Positions 46,293 to 55,211 of a stretch of DNA of 64,000 nt are shown one piece after another (the first letter of the stretch is position 1; every line of letters begins with the position of its first letter). A program made the position numbers and the translations under genes. The DNA comes from Hellea sp. GTDB lineage: Bacteria > Pseudomonadota > Alphaproteobacteria > Caulobacterales > Maricaulaceae. The notes beneath the pieces are model-generated. The model was not told where the DNA came from. It did no database searches and saw only the letters and a list, made by a program, of their open reading frames with translations. The DNA is taken from contig JAHDDC010000009.1 in NCBI GenBank assembly GCA_020629545.1, positions 1 to 64,000 of the forward strand, in the 5' to 3' direction.

Positions 46293-46892
46293 TCAATTGT
46301 GCCGGGCCTTTAGAACGTCAATCACGTCCGAAAGCCTCACATCCCGCGCCGCTAGAATAACAATCAAGTGATATATCAAATCTGCCGCTTCACCTTTAAG
46401 CGCGCGTTCGTCTTCGGCTACAGCGGCAAGTGCCGTTTCTACGCCTTCTTCTCCAACCTTTTGCGCAGCTTTATGAAGAGGCCCAGACAGTAATTTAGCC
46501 GTATAAGATGTCGATGGATCGGCTCCTTTTCGCTCATTAATCAAGTCCTCCAAATAGGATAAGAATGACAGAGTTGAATTGGCATCATCACCGAAACAAG
46601 ATCGTGTCCCTGTATGACAGGTTGGGCCTTTGGGTCTGGCCGTTACCAAGAGGGCATCATGATCGCAGTCGACTCTTATATCGACAAACTCAAGATAGTT
46701 CCCGGAGGTCTCCCCTTTGGTCCAGAGCCGGTTTTTAGAGCGCGAAAAGAATGTCACCTTTCCGAGCTCATGTGTTTTTTCCACAGCAGCTTTGTTCATA
46801 TAGCCCAGCATTAAGACAGTGCCGGTTTGCGCATCTTGAATGATCGCCGGAACAAGGCCTTTGCCTTTTTCAAAGTCTATTGTTTCAATCAT
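46293..46892 (-). CDS. hisIE: Bifunctional HisIE (PRA-CH / PRA-PH)
   Basis: The 199-aa protein fuses the phosphoribosyl-AMP cyclohydrolase (HisI, motifs [11 protein letters not shown] and [12 protein letters not shown]) to phosphoribosyl-ATP pyrophosphohydrolase (HisE, motif EGVETALAA). It catalyses steps 2 and 3 of histidine synthesis. It overlaps the hisF stop by 4 nt and closes the operon. Confidence 0.96.
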
Positions 46893-47663
46893 AGTCTAAT
46901 CTCAATGCCCGCATCTTTTAGGGCGCGTTTCAGATCAGGAATAGCGATCACAGATTTATGAAATACGCTGGCCGCAAGTGCGCCGTCCACATTTGCCTGT
47001 TCAAAAACATCTTTGAAATGAGACACGGCGCCCGCGCCTCCAGATGCTATCAAAGGCACAGGACACTGAGCTCGAACTGCGGAGAGCTGTTCAATATCAT
47101 ATCCTTTGCGGACGCCATCCTGGTTCATACAATTTAGCACAATCTCGCCAGCGCCGCGATCAACGACTTCCCTGGCCCAGTCCAACATGACCCTGCCGGT
47201 TTCGCGCATTTTGTCGGGATCACCTGTATGGGATTTCACGCGATAGACGGGACCGTCTTCTGTCATCTCTTCAAAACTATCAATCCCGATCACGATACAT
47301 TGCGTACCGAAAGCCGCGACAAGATCATTGATTAATTCTGGACGCGCAAGCGCTGGAGAGTTGATAGAAATTTTGTCAGCGCCGGCCGATAGGCGCGCGC
47401 CCGCGACCTCAACACTGTCAATTCCGCCAGCCACACAAAACGGAATGTCAATCTCGCTGGAAATCAAAGAAATCCATTCCGGGCTCACGGATCGATCATC
47501 AACACTGGCCGTAATGTCATAAAATACCAGCTCATCGGCGCCCTCATCGCGGTAACGCATGGCCAGCTCCAAAATATCGCCGACATCTTCGTGATTTCGA
47601 AACTGGACACCCTTGACCACCCTTCCATCACGGACATCTCGGGATTATTCTCCGCGCTAGCAC
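46889..47663 (-). CDS. hisF: HisF cyclase, frameshifted near its 5' end
   Basis: HisF is the cyclase of imidazoleglycerol-phosphate synthase, with HisH. The GTG at 47663 gives MLARRIIP, the usual HisF start. That frame then fails within a few codons, while [19 protein letters not shown] continues in another frame. Adding 5 nt near 47640 would restore [20 protein letters not shown] exactly. As read, the in-frame start (GTG at 47620) loses the first strand and catalytic Asp11. It is a frameshift mutation or a sequencing/assembly error. The rest is intact. Confidence 0.85.
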
Positions 47664-48393
47664 GCGACGCGATTGCCTCATCGACTGAGAATTTATTTTC
47701 GTAAAGCGCTTTGCCGATGATAATGCCATGGGGCTGCAACGCCTTGAGGTCTTTAACATCATCCAGCGTCCCAACCCCGCCGGACGTAATCAGATCAAGT
47801 GACGGATAATTATTGGCAATGGCCCTATAGAGGTCAACATTAGAGCCTTGTAAAACGCCGTCCTTCTCAATGTCTGTGACCAAGATCGTTTTCAGTCCCG
47901 CCGGTTCATATTCATTCAATAATTGCCACAAAGATTTTTCACCGGTTTCTTTCCAGCCATGCGAAGTCGGAAATGGCACGCCCTCAGCATTCAGTTTCAC
48001 ATCTAGCGCTAGGACTATTCTCTCTGGCCCGAGATCCTCCATCCAGCGCCGAATGAGAATGGGTTCTTTTAGCGCCAGTGATCCGATGACCACTCTCTCT
48101 ATGCCCCCTGCGAGTAATCGTTCGACTTGTGCCCGTTCACGAATGCCGCCGCCGGTTTGGACCTTAAGGCCGCTCTGCTGTGCAATATCAATAATGAGCT
48201 GAGATTGTTGCGCATCAGCATCTTTAGCGCCGTCAAGGTCAACGACATGCAACCATTTGGCGCCAGCAGCCTTAAAGCCCTGCGCGACTTCCACAGGATC
48301 CGCATCATAATCGGTACGCTGATTAAAGTCGCCTTTATACAATCGCACGCAGCCGCCATCCATAAGGTCAATCGCTGGAAAAATCTGGGTCAT
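47485..48393 (-). CDS. hisA: HisA isomerase with out-of-frame 60-aa extension
   Basis: This is the 1-(5-phosphoribosyl)-5-amino imidazole carboxamide isomerase, step 4. The barrel motifs [27 protein letters not shown] and [14 protein letters not shown] are intact through DEAIA (about residue 242, the normal family length). The remaining 60 residues are read out of frame through hisF. With the 5 nt that hisF lacks put back, HisA would stop at a TGA a few codons into hisF. So one deletion explains both anomalies. Overlaps hisH by 4 nt. Confidence 0.9.
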
Positions 48394-48989
48394 GCGCTAA
48401 GCTCCACAAAGTTTTTCAATATCTGCGCCCCGACCTTACTGCTGCGCTCTGGATGAAATTGGCATCCCATGACATTGTCTTTCCGCGCAACAGCGGTGAA
48501 AGGATTACCATAATGGCACGCGGCGATTGAATATTCCGATAGAGGCGCGCCATAGGAATGAACGAAATAGGCATAGTCGCCGGGCTCAATATCATTCATC
48601 AATGCAAAGTCTGAGACCGGGTATAATTGATTCCAACCCATATGAGGAGATGGCAAGTCCCGCGTATCCAACGCGCCGACATGACCCGGAATGAGCCCCA
48701 ATCCATCGATCATTTCTCCGCCTTCTTCCAGACTATCATATAAAAGCTGCATCCCTAGACAGATCCCCATGAGCGGCTGTCTGGCTGTTTTGATGATATC
48801 AATCAGATTTTTTTCCCTGATATTATTCATGGCATAAGGTGCCGCACCTACGCCGGGTAGAACCAATTTATCCGCGCGGCGAATAATACCAAAATCATCT
48901 GAAATTTCGGGTTTGACACCTAGCCTTTCAAAGGCAAATTTCACACTGGAAAGATTAGCGCAGCCCGTATCGATAATGACAAGCCGCAC
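48390..48989 (-). CDS. hisH: Imidazole glycerol-phosphate synthase subunit HisH
   Basis: This is the glutamine amidotransferase partner of HisF. The class I triad is visible: the nucleophile in MGICLGMQLL, and the His/Glu pair in CQFHPERSSK. It starts with GTG, overlapping the hisCB stop by one base. Confidence 0.96.
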   Translation of the reverse strand: MRLVIIDTGCANLSSVKFAFERLGVKPEISDDFGIIRRADKLVLPGVGAAPYAMNNIREKNLIDIIKTARQPLMGICLGMQLLYDSLEEGGEMIDGLGLIPGHVGALDTRDLPSPHMGWNQLYPVSDFALMNDIEPGDYAYFVHSYGAPLSEYSIAACHYGNPFTAVARKDNVMGCQFHPERSSKVGAQILKNFVELSA

Positions 48990-50644
48990 TAAATAACACC
49001 TTTAGTCGATGGGATGTCTGTTGTTGGTCCGCGAGAAATTGCTGGACGCAATGCTCTCCCGACACCTTTGAAGCAAGCCTCAATCATATGGTGGGTATTA
49101 TCGCCTTTCACATCAATTTGGATTGAGGCCCCCAGGCTTTGGGACAGGCTCTGGAAGAAATGCGGACACATTTCGGCTGCAAATGCACCGACATTTTCTG
49201 TAGGAAAATTCCCATTAAAAACAAAAGCCGGTCGGCCTGACAAATCTATCGCGACCCGGGCCTGCGTTTCATCCATGGGCATGACAAACCCATAACGACC
49301 AATTCCGGCTTTGTTGCCAAGGGCCTGTTTAAGCGCTGTGCCAAAAGCCAAAGCCGTATCTTCGACGCTGTGATGGCTATCGATATGCAGATCACCTGCG
49401 CATTTAAGGGTCAGGCCCATGCCGCCATGTTTCGCGATTTGCTCCAGCATGTGATCGAAAAAACCAAGTCCTGTTTCAATGGCGACGGTCCCAGGGTCGT
49501 CCAGATTAACCCGTACGGATATATCAGTTTCCTTTGTTGTTCGAAACGCTTCGGCGACACGTTCATTAATTACGGCCTCAGGCGTAATCCCAAGCGCAGA
49601 TAACAACAGATCATTTTCTTCTGGCATGCCAACGGAAATTCTGAAATGACCCGGAATTTTTGATCTAAAATCTCTAATCTTGATATTAAACCGCGTAAGC
49701 GACGCCAGCAATGCGTCGTCATCTTTTGCTTTAAGTAAAATGAAATTTGCATCAGACGGATAGACTTTCGCGATCATATTGCAATCAGGCAGGGCTTCCA
49801 TAAGCCGGGCACGTTCTGACATCCAAATTGCCATTCGGCTATCGTGAACGGCCATTGCTGATGGCGCGAGAGCCTTCATGACGGCCTGTTCAACCGGACG
49901 TGGGACCGGATAGGGCGGCAAGACTTTGAGCATGAGATTAATGATTTGCGGATTGGCCAGTGCAACCCCGGCTCTTACGCCTGCGAGTCCATAAGCTTTC
50001 GACAATGTCCGCATTAAAACCAAATTCCGGTTTTTATCGAGTAGATCAGACAAGTTTCCGCGCGCCGCAAACTCACTATAGGCCTCATCAACCATAATCA
50101 GAGTGTTTGGATGTTCAGCACATAAACTCTCGATGAAATCCGAGGGAACTGAATTGCCAGTGGGATTATTTGGCGAACACAGCATCGCGATTTTTATTGC
50201 ATTCGTCTCGAGCGCTTTTTTGACAGCAGCCTGATCGATGTCATAGTTTTTATCCAGAGGCACTTTCACAATACCCGCGCCCTGAACCTGCGCAGCAATA
50301 TCAAAATATCCAAAGCTTGGCGGGCAGATAAGCACATTGTCTTCGCCGGCTTCACAAAACGTTCGCAGCAACACATCGATCGCTTCATCGGCGCCTCGAC
50401 CCAAAAGAATATTTTCAGCGGGGACTCCGTAAAGCCCTGAAAGACGCGCCATTAGGACGGGTGGTTGTTGCGCCGGATAACGATTATAATCTTCTTCCCT
50501 TGGTCCGGCCGGGGGCGGTGCCCACGGACTTTCATTGGCATCCATATGAAGCGCCTTTGTTGAAGCGCCTCGGGCACTATAAGCCTTAAACCCAGCAATG
50601 ACCGGACGGGCGAGTTGATTGGCCCACTTAAAATCCTCAACCAT
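48989..50644 (-). CDS. hisCB: HisC-HisB fusion (aminotransferase + dehydratase)
   Basis: The 551-aa single chain joins an N-terminal PLP histidinol-phosphate aminotransferase to C-terminal imidazoleglycerol-phosphate dehydratase (HisB). HisC motifs include LGRGADEAID, CSPNNPTGN, DEAYSEF and the PLP lysine in TLSKAYGLAGVRAG. HisB begins near residue 358: GLGFFDHMLEQIAKHGGM, HHSVEDTALAFGTA. No stop lies between, and the junction is only about 10 residues. The two steps follow each other in the pathway (dehydratase, then aminotransferase). Overlaps hisD by 8 nt. Confidence 0.94.
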   Translation of the reverse strand: MVEDFKWANQLARPVIAGFKAYSARGASTKALHMDANESPWAPPPAGPREEDYNRYPAQQPPVLMARLSGLYGVPAENILLGRGADEAIDVLLRTFCEAGEDNVLICPPSFGYFDIAAQVQGAGIVKVPLDKNYDIDQAAVKKALETNAIKIAMLCSPNNPTGNSVPSDFIESLCAEHPNTLIMVDEAYSEFAARGNLSDLLDKNRNLVLMRTLSKAYGLAGVRAGVALANPQIINLMLKVLPPYPVPRPVEQAVMKALAPSAMAVHDSRMAIWMSERARLMEALPDCNMIAKVYPSDANFILLKAKDDDALLASLTRFNIKIRDFRSKIPGHFRISVGMPEENDLLLSALGITPEAVINERVAEAFRTTKETDISVRVNLDDPGTVAIETGLGFFDHMLEQIAKHGGMGLTLKCAGDLHIDSHHSVEDTALAFGTALKQALGNKAGIGRYGFVMPMDETQARVAIDLSGRPAFVFNGNFPTENVGAFAAEMCPHFFQSLSQSLGASIQIDVKGDNTHHMIEACFKGVGRALRPAISRGPTTDIPSTKGVI

Positions 50645-51938
50645 TTAAAGCCTCCAATCTGAAGCTGATCGCTCGTTTATGAGCTTCTAGGTCTTCCATT
50701 TCTGCCAAAGTTTCAACAATTGGGCCGAGACGCCGCAATCCATCCTCTGTCAGGTTTTGAAAGGAGATAAATTTAAAGAAACTCTCAAGGGTTACGCCGC
50801 TATAATTACGCGCAGCGCCATTGGTTGGCAGGGTATGATTGGTTCCGCTCGCATAATCTCCGATGCTCTCGGGCGTCCAAGGCCCCACAAATACAGAGCC
50901 GGCATTTACCACTTTCGACGCGATTTCATCCGCGTTGACGGTCTGTAATATTAAATGCTCGGGCGCATAATCATTGATAATCTCGAGAACACTACCAGGG
51001 TCGTTGGCGATAATCATCCGGCTTGCCGCCATGGCCTCACGCGCTATCTCAGCACGAGGTAAACTTGCCAACTGCCGATCCACTTCTTTTGAAATGTAAT
51101 TGGCTGTTTCCGCATCGCTTGCGACGCAAATGACTTGCGCCAAAGTGTCATGCTCAGCCTGAGACAGAAGATCTGAGGCAACAAAAACCGGATTTGCGTG
51201 CTCATCTGCGACGACCATGGCTTCGGACGGTCCAGCCGGAAGATCTATCGCAGGCCCGCCCGCAATCTGAGACGCTTTAACCTTGGCCATTGCCACATAT
51301 GAATTGCCTGGGCCGAAAATTTTATCACATTTTGGAACGGTCTCTGTGCCATAGGTCATGGCGGCAATCGCTTGTGCGCCCCCGCAGGCATATACATCTG
51401 TTGCCTCGCAAAGATAGGCTGCGGCAAGTATGGCTGGATTGATTTGGCCGTCTCGGCCCGGAGGCGTTACGATCACGCGGCGCACGCAACCCGCGACTTT
51501 TGCCGGAACCGCCAACATTAACGTTGTTGATACCAAAGGCGCGGTCCCGCCCGGAACATATAGTCCTACCGTCTGCAGCGGCCTAGGTTCTCGGCGGCAA
51601 ACAACGCCTGGCATCGTCTCGACTGAGATAGATTTGGGCGTTTGCGCGATGTGGAATTTTTCAATATTGACCTTGGCCGTTTTCAGCGCGTTCTGAGCCG
51701 CTAAAGGCAGTGCGTTCCAGGCTGATTTACATTCGGATAATGGGACGGAAAGAAGCTCCGTATCAGGAGCGTCGAATTTTCGCGTATAGTCAAGTAAAGC
51801 CTTGTCGCCGCGCGACTCCACAGCGGACATTATCTCGGCAACAGTTTTTTCGACCGAAGCATCAGTCAAACCTGCCGGACGCGCCAAAGCGGCGAGACGT
51901 TCACTGGATGATAGCTTATCCCAGTTCAAAATTTGCAT
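50637..51938 (-). CDS. hisD: Histidinol dehydrogenase HisD
   Basis: The 433-aa enzyme oxidises histidinol to histidine. Family motifs YVPGGTAPLVSTTLMLAVPAKVAG, GPGNSYVAMAK and EHLILQ are present at normal length. The start overlaps the hisG stop by one base. Confidence 0.97.
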   Translation of the reverse strand: MQILNWDKLSSSERLAALARPAGLTDASVEKTVAEIMSAVESRGDKALLDYTRKFDAPDTELLSVPLSECKSAWNALPLAAQNALKTAKVNIEKFHIAQTPKSISVETMPGVVCRREPRPLQTVGLYVPGGTAPLVSTTLMLAVPAKVAGCVRRVIVTPPGRDGQINPAILAAAYLCEATDVYACGGAQAIAAMTYGTETVPKCDKIFGPGNSYVAMAKVKASQIAGGPAIDLPAGPSEAMVVADEHANPVFVASDLLSQAEHDTLAQVICVASDAETANYISKEVDRQLASLPRAEIAREAMAASRMIIANDPGSVLEIINDYAPEHLILQTVNADEIASKVVNAGSVFVGPWTPESIGDYASGTNHTLPTNGAARNYSGVTLESFFKFISFQNLTEDGLRRLGPIVETLAEMEDLEAHKRAISFRLEALNG

Positions 51939-52825
51939 CAGGCCATCATCTTTTCAATTGGCAAGACCAGCACGGCGCGCGCACCGAGGGCTTTTAGCTC
52001 TTCTAATGTTTCCCAAAATATATTTTCTGTACATACGGCCTGTAGAGCCACCAAATCCTCTGTCCCGGCCAGCGGCATAATCGTCGGAGCATCAGCCCCC
52101 GGCAGGAGCTCGGTGATGGCGGCCACCTGAGACTTGGGCGCATTCATCATGATATACTTCGTTTCAGCCGACTTTATGACACCATCAATCCGGCTCGTCA
52201 GCTTGTCATATATTTCCTGCTTTTCAGGGCTCAGGGTTCGAGCTGATTTAATGAGTACAGCCTCAGATTTCAAAATAGTTTCAAATGCCGTCAGCCCATT
52301 TGCCTCAAGCGTTGCGCCCGATGATACGAGATCACAAATACTTTCCGCAATATTGATTGACGGAGCAAGTTCGACGGCACCTTTCATTTCAACTGATTTG
52401 GCGTTGATATTGTTGTGTTGAAGAAAACGCCCGAGAACCCCAGGGTAGGTCGTTGCTATCCGCGTCCCTTCGAGATCAGCAACGGATTGAATTGAGCCAC
52501 TTTCAGGCGCGGCGAGACAAAGCTTACACCGCGAAAACCCAAGACGCATTTTGATATCAGCATCAAGTCCATCTTTTGCTGTAAGTTGCTCTTCAACCAA
52601 GACGTTTTCACCAACAATCCCAATATCAGCCGCGTTATTCGCGACAAATGATGGAATATCGTCATCCCTAACGAGCAAGAGGTCAACAGGCATATTTTTC
52701 ACCCTTGCCAATAATCCTCCGCCTCGAATAGCAAATCTTAGTCCGCATTTTTTGAGTAGCGCATAGCTGTCATCTGCGAGCCGCCCCTTTTTCTGCAAGG
52801 CGATCCGCAAGCGTTGTTCAGTCAT
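51938..52825 (-). CDS. hisG: ATP phosphoribosyltransferase HisG, long form
   Basis: This is the first, feedback-controlled step of histidine synthesis. The ATG at 52825 (MTEQRLRIALQKKGRL) follows one base after the regulator gene stop; the track's longer ORF reads through the regulator gene. At 295 aa with a C-terminal ACT-like regulatory domain (ending ARAVLVLPIEKMMA) it is the long form, so no HisZ is required. Confidence 0.94.
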   Translation of the reverse strand: MTEQRLRIALQKKGRLADDSYALLKKCGLRFAIRGGGLLARVKNMPVDLLLVRDDDIPSFVANNAADIGIVGENVLVEEQLTAKDGLDADIKMRLGFSRCKLCLAAPESGSIQSVADLEGTRIATTYPGVLGRFLQHNNINAKSVEMKGAVELAPSINIAESICDLVSSGATLEANGLTAFETILKSEAVLIKSARTLSPEKQEIYDKLTSRIDGVIKSAETKYIMMNAPKSQVAAITELLPGADAPTIMPLAGTEDLVALQAVCTENIFWETLEELKALGARAVLVLPIEKMMA

Positions 52826-52826
52826 T

Positions 52827-53117
52827 TTAGTGATCCTTAATTCTGTCCAAAACGATACGATAGCCCTGATGCGGTTCGTCCTTGAGAAATCTTGCAACGC
52901 GCCCAATTGTTGTTGTTGAGACACCGGTCTGAGCCGAAATATCACGATACGACATATCGGTTTCGTCAAGTAGACACGCAACATGCCACCGCTCTGATAA
53001 TGCTCGAAGTTCAGCTGGCGTACACAAATCAACCAGAAAACGCCGTATTTCATCCGGTGAATTCAGCTGACTTAAAGCGCCATATAAGCTCGTATTATGT
53101 TTGAATGTATCGGTCAT
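52827..53117 (-). CDS. TrpR/YerC-family regulator, likely of his genes
   Basis: The 96-aa protein is of the TrpR/YerC-YecD type: CTPAELRALSERWHVACLLDETDMSYRDISAQTGVSTTTIGRVARFL contains the trp-repressor HTH. It is first in the histidine operon. A near-perfect 18-bp palindrome overlaps its start codon and promoter. Autogenous repression of the operon, perhaps with histidine as co-repressor, is inferred. Confidence 0.85.
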   Translation of the reverse strand: MTDTFKHNTSLYGALSQLNSPDEIRRFLVDLCTPAELRALSERWHVACLLDETDMSYRDISAQTGVSTTTIGRVARFLKDEPHQGYRIVLDRIKDH

Positions 53118-53134
53118 AGCGTATTAACACGCTA
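53117..53134. promoter_or_regulatory. his operon operator palindrome
   Basis: TAGCGTATTAACACGCTA is a palindrome with two mismatched centre-flanking positions. It spans from the first base of the regulator ATG to the last bases of the -10 box, so bound protein would block both transcription start and initiation. Confidence 0.7.
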
Positions 53135-53159
53135 ATACACTCCAAGCCAAAGATGTCAA
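53132..53159 (-). promoter_or_regulatory. his operon promoter
   Basis: On the minus strand TTGACA (53159-53154), a 16-bp spacer and TATTAG (53137-53132) are followed 14 nt later by the regulator ATG. A start about 7 nt below the -10 gives a leader under 10 nt, so the mRNA is nearly leaderless. Confidence 0.65.
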
Positions 53160-53230
53160 GCGGCAAGGCTGTTAAAAATCCAGGAATACGAAGTGGGCCC
53201 CTGAAGACGGTGCTCACCAAAAATAGAATA

Positions 53231-53259
53231 AAAAGAGATCGCCTTTAAAGGGGGCAATC
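53231..53259 (-). terminator. Terminator after flp
   Basis: On the minus strand GATTGCC pairs with GGCGATC (7 bp, one G-U) around a 9-nt loop, followed by TCTTTTT. It lies 55 nt beyond the flp stop and before the his promoter. Confidence 0.6.
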
Positions 53260-53313
53260 CCTACGGGGAGATAAAGGTAGTCTTTATAAATGTAAGAAAA
53301 GACACAGCAGAAC

Positions 53314-53496
53314 CTATGTTGCCGCGACAACCTCGTCTTTTACGCTTTCCCACTTTCCTGTATTGCCGCCGCCCAAAGCCGTTAAGCCTGCGATCATTGC
53401 TAGGGTTAGGAGAGCCAAAATAAGTCCATATTCGATGGCTGTTGCGCCCGATTCATCTTTCAAGAATCTTTTTAATTCTGTGTAGCCCTGTTTCAT
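53314..53496 (-). CDS. Flp-type IVb pilin
   Basis: The 60-aa product has the Flp prepilin signature: a basic leader ending in ESG, then ATAIEYGLILALLTLAMIAGL with the mature Glu5-Tyr6. It is the sole pilus gene here, without tad genes. The start overlaps the mutT stop by 4 nt. Confidence 0.9.
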   Translation of the reverse strand: MKQGYTELKRFLKDESGATAIEYGLILALLTLAMIAGLTALGGGNTGKWESVKDEVVAAT

Positions 53497-53918
53497 TCAT
53501 ATGCCCGGCCCTTTTGAAGCCGGTCCTTTATTTCTTCTGCAAGCGGGATATCCGCCGGCACAAGATTTAATTGCGTTATGCGATCAGGGAAAACCCACTT
53601 GATCACTTGTCCCTCTTTGGGCTGAGCGAACCCATCCCATTGCCGGCACAAATATAAAGGCATAAATAGATGGAACGTCTCATAAGCGTGAGAAACGAAA
53701 GAAAAGGGCTGCAAACACCGCTCACACGGTTCTATTCCCAGCTCTTCGCGAAGTTCACGCGTTACTGTTTGTTCGGGACGTTCACCTTTTTCTATCTTAC
53801 CACCCGGAAACTCCCACATTCCCGAGAACATTTTGCCAGCCGGTCGTTGTGACATCAAAATGCGCCCGTCTTGATCGATGAGCGCGCATGCCGCCACATA
53901 CAACAGATTATCAGGCAT
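53493..53918 (-). CDS. mutT: 8-oxo-dGTP diphosphatase MutT
   Basis: The 141-aa Nudix hydrolase has the box GGKIEKGERPEQTVTRELREELG. It removes oxidised dGTP from the nucleotide pool. It sits between argJ and the flp gene, with a 54-nt gap to argJ. Confidence 0.93.
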   Translation of the reverse strand: MPDNLLYVAACALIDQDGRILMSQRPAGKMFSGMWEFPGGKIEKGERPEQTVTRELREELGIEPCERCLQPFSFVSHAYETFHLFMPLYLCRQWDGFAQPKEGQVIKWVFPDRITQLNLVPADIPLAEEIKDRLQKGRAYE

Positions 53919-53972
53919 ATAGATAAATCCTTAATTTCCTAGTAAGGAAAGGGGAGAAAAAGCAAACAACTC

Positions 53973-55211
53973 TTAACTTCTGTAATCAGCGTTAATATCT
54001 ATATAACGATGAGTCAGATCGCAGGTCCAGGCAGTATAACTGCCGCCCCCCAGACCAATATCAACCTTAATCTCCAAATGATCGCGCTTCATATAGGCCG
54101 CGCCGTCTGCTTCAGTATAACCTCTGGCAAGCTCGCCTCTTTCGGCCAATAGATGTGGGCCCATCGAGATAGACAATTTTTCGGGATTAGCAGGCTCTCC
54201 CGATTTTCCAATCGCCATGACAATACGGCCCCAATTCGCGTCCTCACCCGCAATCGCAGTTTTAACCAGAGGTGAGTTTCCGATGGCCATGGCAATCGTT
54301 CGCGCGCTATCATCAGATACAGCGCCGTTCACTTCAATCGCTATAAATTTCGTAGCCCCCTCGCCGTCTTTTATAATTTGATGGGATAGGCCCAGCATCA
54401 CCTTCAAAAGTGCATTTTTGAAATCGTTAAGTGCCGAGTCGTGAGGATCTGTCATGACTGCATGTTTGGCCGCACAGCTCGCTGCCAGTAATACTGTGTC
54501 CGAGGTTGATGTATCGCTATCGACCGTAATGGCGTTAAATGTAAGAGCTGTGAAGCCGGACAATATCGTTTGCAAGGCGGCCTGAGAAATATTGGCGTCG
54601 GTAGCAATAAAGGCAAGCATGGTTGCCATATCCGGCGCGATCATGCCTGAACCTTTGGCAATCCCGTTAATCCGGACCTCTGTATCACCTATTTTTGCTG
54701 TGGCCGTTGCGCCTTTGGCATAAGTATCTGTAGTCATTATCGCACGGGCAGACGCCTCCCAGAGGTCTTCCGTCATACTTTTTTTCATATCGGGCATGGC
54801 GCGAACAATCTTGGCGACATCAAGCGGCTCGCCGATCACGCCGGTCGAAGCCAGCATAACGGCTTTAGCATCTACATCGAATACTTTTCGGGCAACATTT
54901 GCCGTCAGCTCTGCCGCCTTGTCACCGCTGCGTCCCGTGAAAACATTTGCGTTTCCGGAATTAACAACAATGACCCGCGGAAGCTCGGGATCGTTTGGCG
55001 CGAGCAGCGCACGGCGCGACCAGACCACTGGGGCACCTGGCATAAGACTTCGGGTAAAAACCCCTGCGATCTGCGTGCCAGGCTGACCCCGCAAAACCCA
55101 AAGATCATCTCGATCTTTATAGCGAATGCCAGATGCCTTCACGGCCATATCAAATCCCTTTACGGGTGGCATTTCGGGAAAAGACTTGGGCGCAAAAGGC
55201 GAAACGTCCAT
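53973..55211 (-). CDS. argJ: Bifunctional ornithine/glutamate acetyltransferase ArgJ
   Basis: The 412-aa enzyme makes N-acetylglutamate and ornithine in arginine synthesis. The autoprocessing site KGSGMIAPDMATML (cleavage before the threonine) and SDTSTSDTV are intact. It lies 2 nt after the parvulin gene, in the same direction. Confidence 0.96.
   Translation of the reverse strand: MDVSPFAPKSFPEMPPVKGFDMAVKASGIRYKDRDDLWVLRGQPGTQIAGVFTRSLMPGAPVVWSRRALLAPNDPELPRVIVVNSGNANVFTGRSGDKAAELTANVARKVFDVDAKAVMLASTGVIGEPLDVAKIVRAMPDMKKSMTEDLWEASARAIMTTDTYAKGATATAKIGDTEVRINGIAKGSGMIAPDMATMLAFIATDANISQAALQTILSGFTALTFNAITVDSDTSTSDTVLLAASCAAKHAVMTDPHDSALNDFKNALLKVMLGLSHQIIKDGEGATKFIAIEVNGAVSDDSARTIAMAIGNSPLVKTAIAGEDANWGRIVMAIGKSGEPANPEKLSISMGPHLLAERGELARGYTEADGAAYMKRDHLEIKVDIGLGGGSYTAWTCDLTHRYIDINADYRS

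Follow-up and report, generated by a model that had tools for sequence, protein, structure and literature searches.

A conserved HisR box overlapping the predicted promoter and adjoining hisR points to autogenous repression of a histidine operon in Hellea sp.

The window analysed here, the whole 64,000-nucleotide stretch of Hellea sp. DNA, carries on its minus strand a complete, densely packed his operon (53117-46293) headed by hisR (52827..53117), which encodes a 96-residue TrpR-related repressor of the YerC/YecD family. The sequence-only reading had placed a TrpR/YerC-type regulator at the head of the operon, and this is borne out: the hisR product scores 59.6 bits against TIGR02531, above the curated cut-off of 42.2, and 73.7 bits against PF01371, is a sequence relative of the solved HisR-like structures 3FRW, 3G1C and 3KOR, and is followed by genes from hisG to hisIE. 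Identity with the tryptophan repressor TrpR was considered and rejected, as the equivalog cut-off of TIGR01321 (67.25 bits) is missed with a score of 30 bits. The first ATG of hisR is its sole usable in-frame start.

Downstream on the same strand, hisG (51938..52825; TIGR00070 and TIGR03455) starts 1 nt past the hisR stop and is followed by hisD (50637..51938; TIGR00069) and by a hisC-hisB fusion (48989..50644) of 551 residues, in which TIGR01141 matches over 14-352 and the HisB models over about 361-551. Open reading frames and sequence motifs identify hisH (48390..48989) and a bifunctional hisIE (46293..46892). Between these two lie hisA (47650..48393), an open reading frame whose 3′ end is approximate and which reads on into hisF in another frame, and hisF itself (46889..47620), whose 5′ end is apparently disturbed. 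At 47600-47680 (minus strand) hisF has no intact start region, which in relatives reads R-I-I-P-C-L-D; this looks like a small frameshift, which could be genuine or a mistake in the draft assembly. Directly upstream of hisR, a small open reading frame resembling a Flp-type pilin (FLKDESGATAIEYGLI; 53314-53496, minus strand) overlaps the terminal part of a mutT-like Nudix gene.

Among named relatives a Hellea sp. MAG (L169; 82% identity) scores best, and the NCBI taxonomy places Hellea in the Robiginitomaculaceae, Maricaulales. Within the family hisR was found in 123 of 137 genomes (91 of the 95 good ones), and hisG follows it at 123 of 124 loci, the remaining locus being cut off. In a class-wide sample of 289 alphaproteobacterial genomes TIGR02531 was found in only 27, which are spread over many families, a distribution that suggests repeated loss or transfer of hisR.

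The DNA preceding hisR contains a putative promoter composed of a -35 element TTGACA (53154..53159, minus strand) and, after a 16-nt spacer, a -10 element TATTAG (53132..53137, minus strand), in agreement with the earlier description of this region. TATTAG matches TATAAT at four of six positions, and a strict sigma-70 scan listed no promoter at the locus because the hexamer is without the final T. Two overlapping elements with dyad symmetry extend from the -10 region towards the start codon. One is a 20-bp sequence, TGTATTAGCGTGTTAATACG (53139..53120, minus strand), defined by its conservation among 116 distinct relatives and interpreted below as the HisR operator; it begins 14 bp downstream of TTGACA, includes TATTAG in its left arm, and ends 2 nt before the hisR ATG. 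The other is the 18-bp palindrome that the sequence-only reading took for the operator, TAGCGTGTTAATACGCTA (53134..53117, minus strand; TAGCGTATTAACACGCTA at 53117-53134), which shares 15 bp with the 20-bp box and touches the hisR ATG, as had been noted, its terminal base being the A of that codon. The centre of the box lies 4 bp upstream of that of the palindrome.

Transcription starting 6-8 nt past TATTAG would give a leader of 7-9 nt; the position of the -10 element and the ATG together predict an untranslated leader of about 8 nt (53118..53125, minus strand), which has no Shine-Dalgarno sequence. The alphaproteobacterial -10 element is GCTANAWC, and an alternative -10 at GCTATGAC matches it at seven of eight positions; it was rejected, since transcription would then start within the hisR coding sequence, leaving the gene without a usable start codon. 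A very short hisR leader is plausible rather than exotic, as leaderless starts and starts that lack a Shine-Dalgarno sequence are common in Caulobacter crescentus, with 375 leaderless mRNAs and 75% of genes starting without a Shine-Dalgarno sequence (PMC4117421).

Comparison of the DNA upstream of hisR at 146 loci, with a footprint based on 116 distinct sequences from the family and its near kin, discriminates between the two elements. The conserved consensus, TGTATTArCryGyTAAyACA, is 20 bp long, and a sequence with at most two mismatches to it precedes hisR at 109 of the 146 loci; in downstream control stretches of equal length the best match never has fewer than four mismatches. Five positions (2 G, 7 A, 14 T, 18 A and 19 C) are invariant in all 116 relatives. 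Symmetry is likewise retained about the centre of the box, where at least seven of nine base pairs are matched in 71 of the 116 relatives, against 14 at the centre of the 18-mer; for at least eight of nine pairs the corresponding numbers are 38 and none. The exact 18-mer occurs in none of the 116. Conservation upstream of orthologous operons, predicted for the palindrome, thus belongs strongly to the 20-mer centred 4 bp upstream and not to the 18-mer. Overlap with the promoter and proximity to the start codon both stand; the operator covers the -10 element, however, rather than straddling the transcription start and the ATG as had been proposed.

The 18-mer might nevertheless be the operator itself, or offer a second, overlapping register to a neighbouring dimer in the manner of tandem TrpR. 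TrpR does bind overlapping registers, and in the window the 18-mer is the more symmetric element, with eight of nine pairs against seven of nine for the box, whose position 20 is G instead of A; seven of nine pairs at its centre are also retained in the 14 relatives counted above. These points are outweighed by the lack of any relative with the exact sequence or with eight matched pairs at that centre, and by the behaviour of the part of the right arm that lies outside the box: CGCTA is kept only where it begins CGCTATATC or CTATAAC, a -10 element, and CTATA downstream of the box only where it forms a -10, positions 21-25 varying elsewhere. Palindromes with eight of nine pairs are moreover not rare, 18 being present in the 64-kb window against 7.1 expected after base shuffling (0.007 expected per 60 bp), so that symmetry by itself is weak evidence. 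The protein gives an independent indication of register. TrpR Arg69 reads the G at -9 of its operator; the equivalent HisR residue, Arg58, is invariant in alignment A1, and so is the G at -9 of the box among the relatives, a pairing that fits the register of the box and not that of the 18-mer. We consider an operator role for the 18-mer unlikely, and its better symmetry in the window is best explained as a chance effect of sequences that overlap at this locus.

The 20-bp box is also confined to hisR. With at most one mismatch it was found in 24 of 61 related genomes, every copy no more than 350 bp upstream of hisR, and in none of 20 genomes without a hisR match. A pattern search of the window's own genome gave a single copy within two mismatches; at three mismatches there were 12 matches against 10 for a reversed control, which is the noise level, and no additional members of the regulon are proposed. 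By its sequence distribution, the operon looks like a one-site, self-regulated unit.

Variant arrangements occur at some related loci. Two HisR-like boxes stand in tandem upstream of hisR in L149 (L192), L161 (L183), L190 and G023, separated by about 23 bp in L149 and by 225 bp in G023 (C7:148053 and 148278). In Brevundimonas and other Caulobacteraceae (L204, L206, L217, L222, L223, L224, L235, L239 and L240) a different, strongly conserved element, TTGACCGTTCCACTGTTACAGCATAGTGGAACG, precedes hisR, overlaps the -35 element and lies a few nucleotides from the ATG; it is apparently a lineage-specific HisR box.

The operators of Escherichia coli TrpR (trp, trpR and aroH) are 20 bp long, have TG..CA ends and overlap their promoters in different registers, as here. 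The two proteins share family PF01371, but E. coli TrpR senses tryptophan, whereas the window protein reaches only 30 bits on the TrpR model and heads a his operon. HisR/YerC of the Firmicutes shares TIGR02531 with the window protein and differs in its box, cacTTTAnnnnnnTAAAgtg. The box in the window is of the proteobacterial type and lies immediately upstream of hisR. Ashniev et al. 2022 (PMC9413887) predicted that HisR, a TrpR-family repressor, controls the his operons of alpha- and gammaproteobacteria, including Caulobacterales and Rhodobacterales; hisR is the first gene of these operons, and the published box, TGTAnTArnnnnyTnTTACA, lies immediately upstream of hisR. The window shares with that regulon, as described there, a TrpR-family HisR first in the operon, a single adjacent site, a 20-bp box and autoregulation, and its box departs from the published consensus at two positions. 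HisR, its box and the leading position of hisR in proteobacterial his operons were therefore already published in 2022, and the window is a further member. The parts of that article consulted describe neither promoter overlap, nor proximity to the start codon, nor a clade-specific promoter geometry; histidine-dependent DNA binding in vitro is given there for R. gnavus HisR only, and the literature searched yielded no experiment on a proteobacterial HisR.

We conclude that the site is very probably a HisR box through which HisR, together with histidine, would block the promoter and repress its own operon. Autogenous repression, proposed from the sequence at the outset, is the best reading of the locus and is well supported by comparison, the box being both conserved and confined to hisR loci. 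When histidine is plentiful, a HisR dimer would bind TGTATTAGCGTGTTAATACG (53139..53120); since the left arm of the box contains the predicted -10 element and the right arm extends to the predicted transcription start, the bound protein would block RNA polymerase and lower transcription of its own gene and the rest of the operon (hisR-hisG-hisD-hisCB-hisH-hisA-hisF-hisIE). As histidine runs low, HisR would dissociate, transcription would begin about 8 nt before the hisR ATG, and translation would start from a very short leader that lacks a Shine-Dalgarno sequence. The role of histidine as co-repressor is proposed by analogy with R. gnavus HisR, the only in vitro precedent, and proteobacterial HisR might sense something else.

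Attenuation is used by the his operons of other Proteobacteria, which raises the question of control at the RNA level through an attenuator, a T-box or a leader hairpin. An Rfam search of 48500-54200 gave no match, however, an automatic terminator scan found no terminator-like hairpin nearby, the predicted 5′ RNA is no more stably folded than shuffled sequences (z = +1.0), and a leader of the predicted length could not accommodate a leader peptide. We attach almost no weight to RNA-level control here, and retain repression by HisR at the box as the preferred reading.

Although the box is constant, the predicted promoter around it is not. In 36 of the 116 relatives a TTG starts 14 bp upstream of the box and in 12 it starts 15 bp upstream, compared with about two at other offsets; at this spacing TATTAR, within the left arm, would serve as the -10 element. 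This arrangement, geometry A, is predicted for the window and most Robiginitomaculaceae-type genera (46 of 123 rows of a quick HisG tree). In geometry B, predicted for a second clade that includes Oceanicaulis, Marinicauda, Alkalicaulis and Woodsholea, the box is followed immediately by CTATAtC in 41 of 46 rows and preceded by T in 42 of 46, so that the box occupies the interval from TTGTnT to the -10. Seven of nine congeners of the window show geometry C, in which TTGACT precedes the box by about 29-31 bp, an arrangement that would place the box at about +1 to +20; the promoter geometry of the window is thus unusual within its own genus. The geometry labels cluster strongly on the HisG tree (19 changes against 61 when shuffled), geometry B being essentially one deep clade. 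Of 41 genomes searched, 17 gave full-length fused HisC-HisB matches; most of these belong to geometry-A genera, and no geometry-B genus in the search had one.

These arrangements raise the question whether the box owes its conservation mainly to promoter function rather than to repressor binding, as parts of it act as the predicted -10 or sit between the -35 and the -10. The same 20 bp are retained even though the predicted promoter registers differ, and the box is palindromic and missing from genomes that lack hisR. A primarily promoter-related origin of its conservation is highly improbable, and the box is treated below as a HisR operator.

The start codon also varies in its position relative to the operator. 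In seven relatives, all from one genus and including Litorimonas cladophorae, the hisR ATG lies at offset -1 or 0 and so overlaps or touches the box; all seven have geometry A and no Shine-Dalgarno sequence. In the window and a few others the ATG lies at +2. Very short leaders are thus predicted to be a feature of a clade and not of the window genome alone. In one congener (L008, in G008) the conserved ATG 2 nt past the box is out of frame with hisR and the first in-frame ATG lies 24 nt past the box, through a frameshift, an assembly error or a real downstream start.

Our confidence is evenly balanced on a broader proposal, that the 20-bp operator stayed fixed while the promoter moved around it, and that in parts of the geometry-A group the start codon moved onto the operator, leading to near-leaderless translation of the repressor. 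The constancy of the box while the predicted promoter differs by clade, and a start codon that touches the operator, are the modestly new elements here. The comparison extends a predicted repressor system to a large family of marine bacteria, in which the box is sharp and can be tested. It also provides a set of naturally occurring promoters that place the same operator sequence differently relative to RNA polymerase, making it possible to test how the position of an operator determines repression and how repressor genes are translated from very short leaders in the alphaproteobacteria, where leaderless mRNAs are common.
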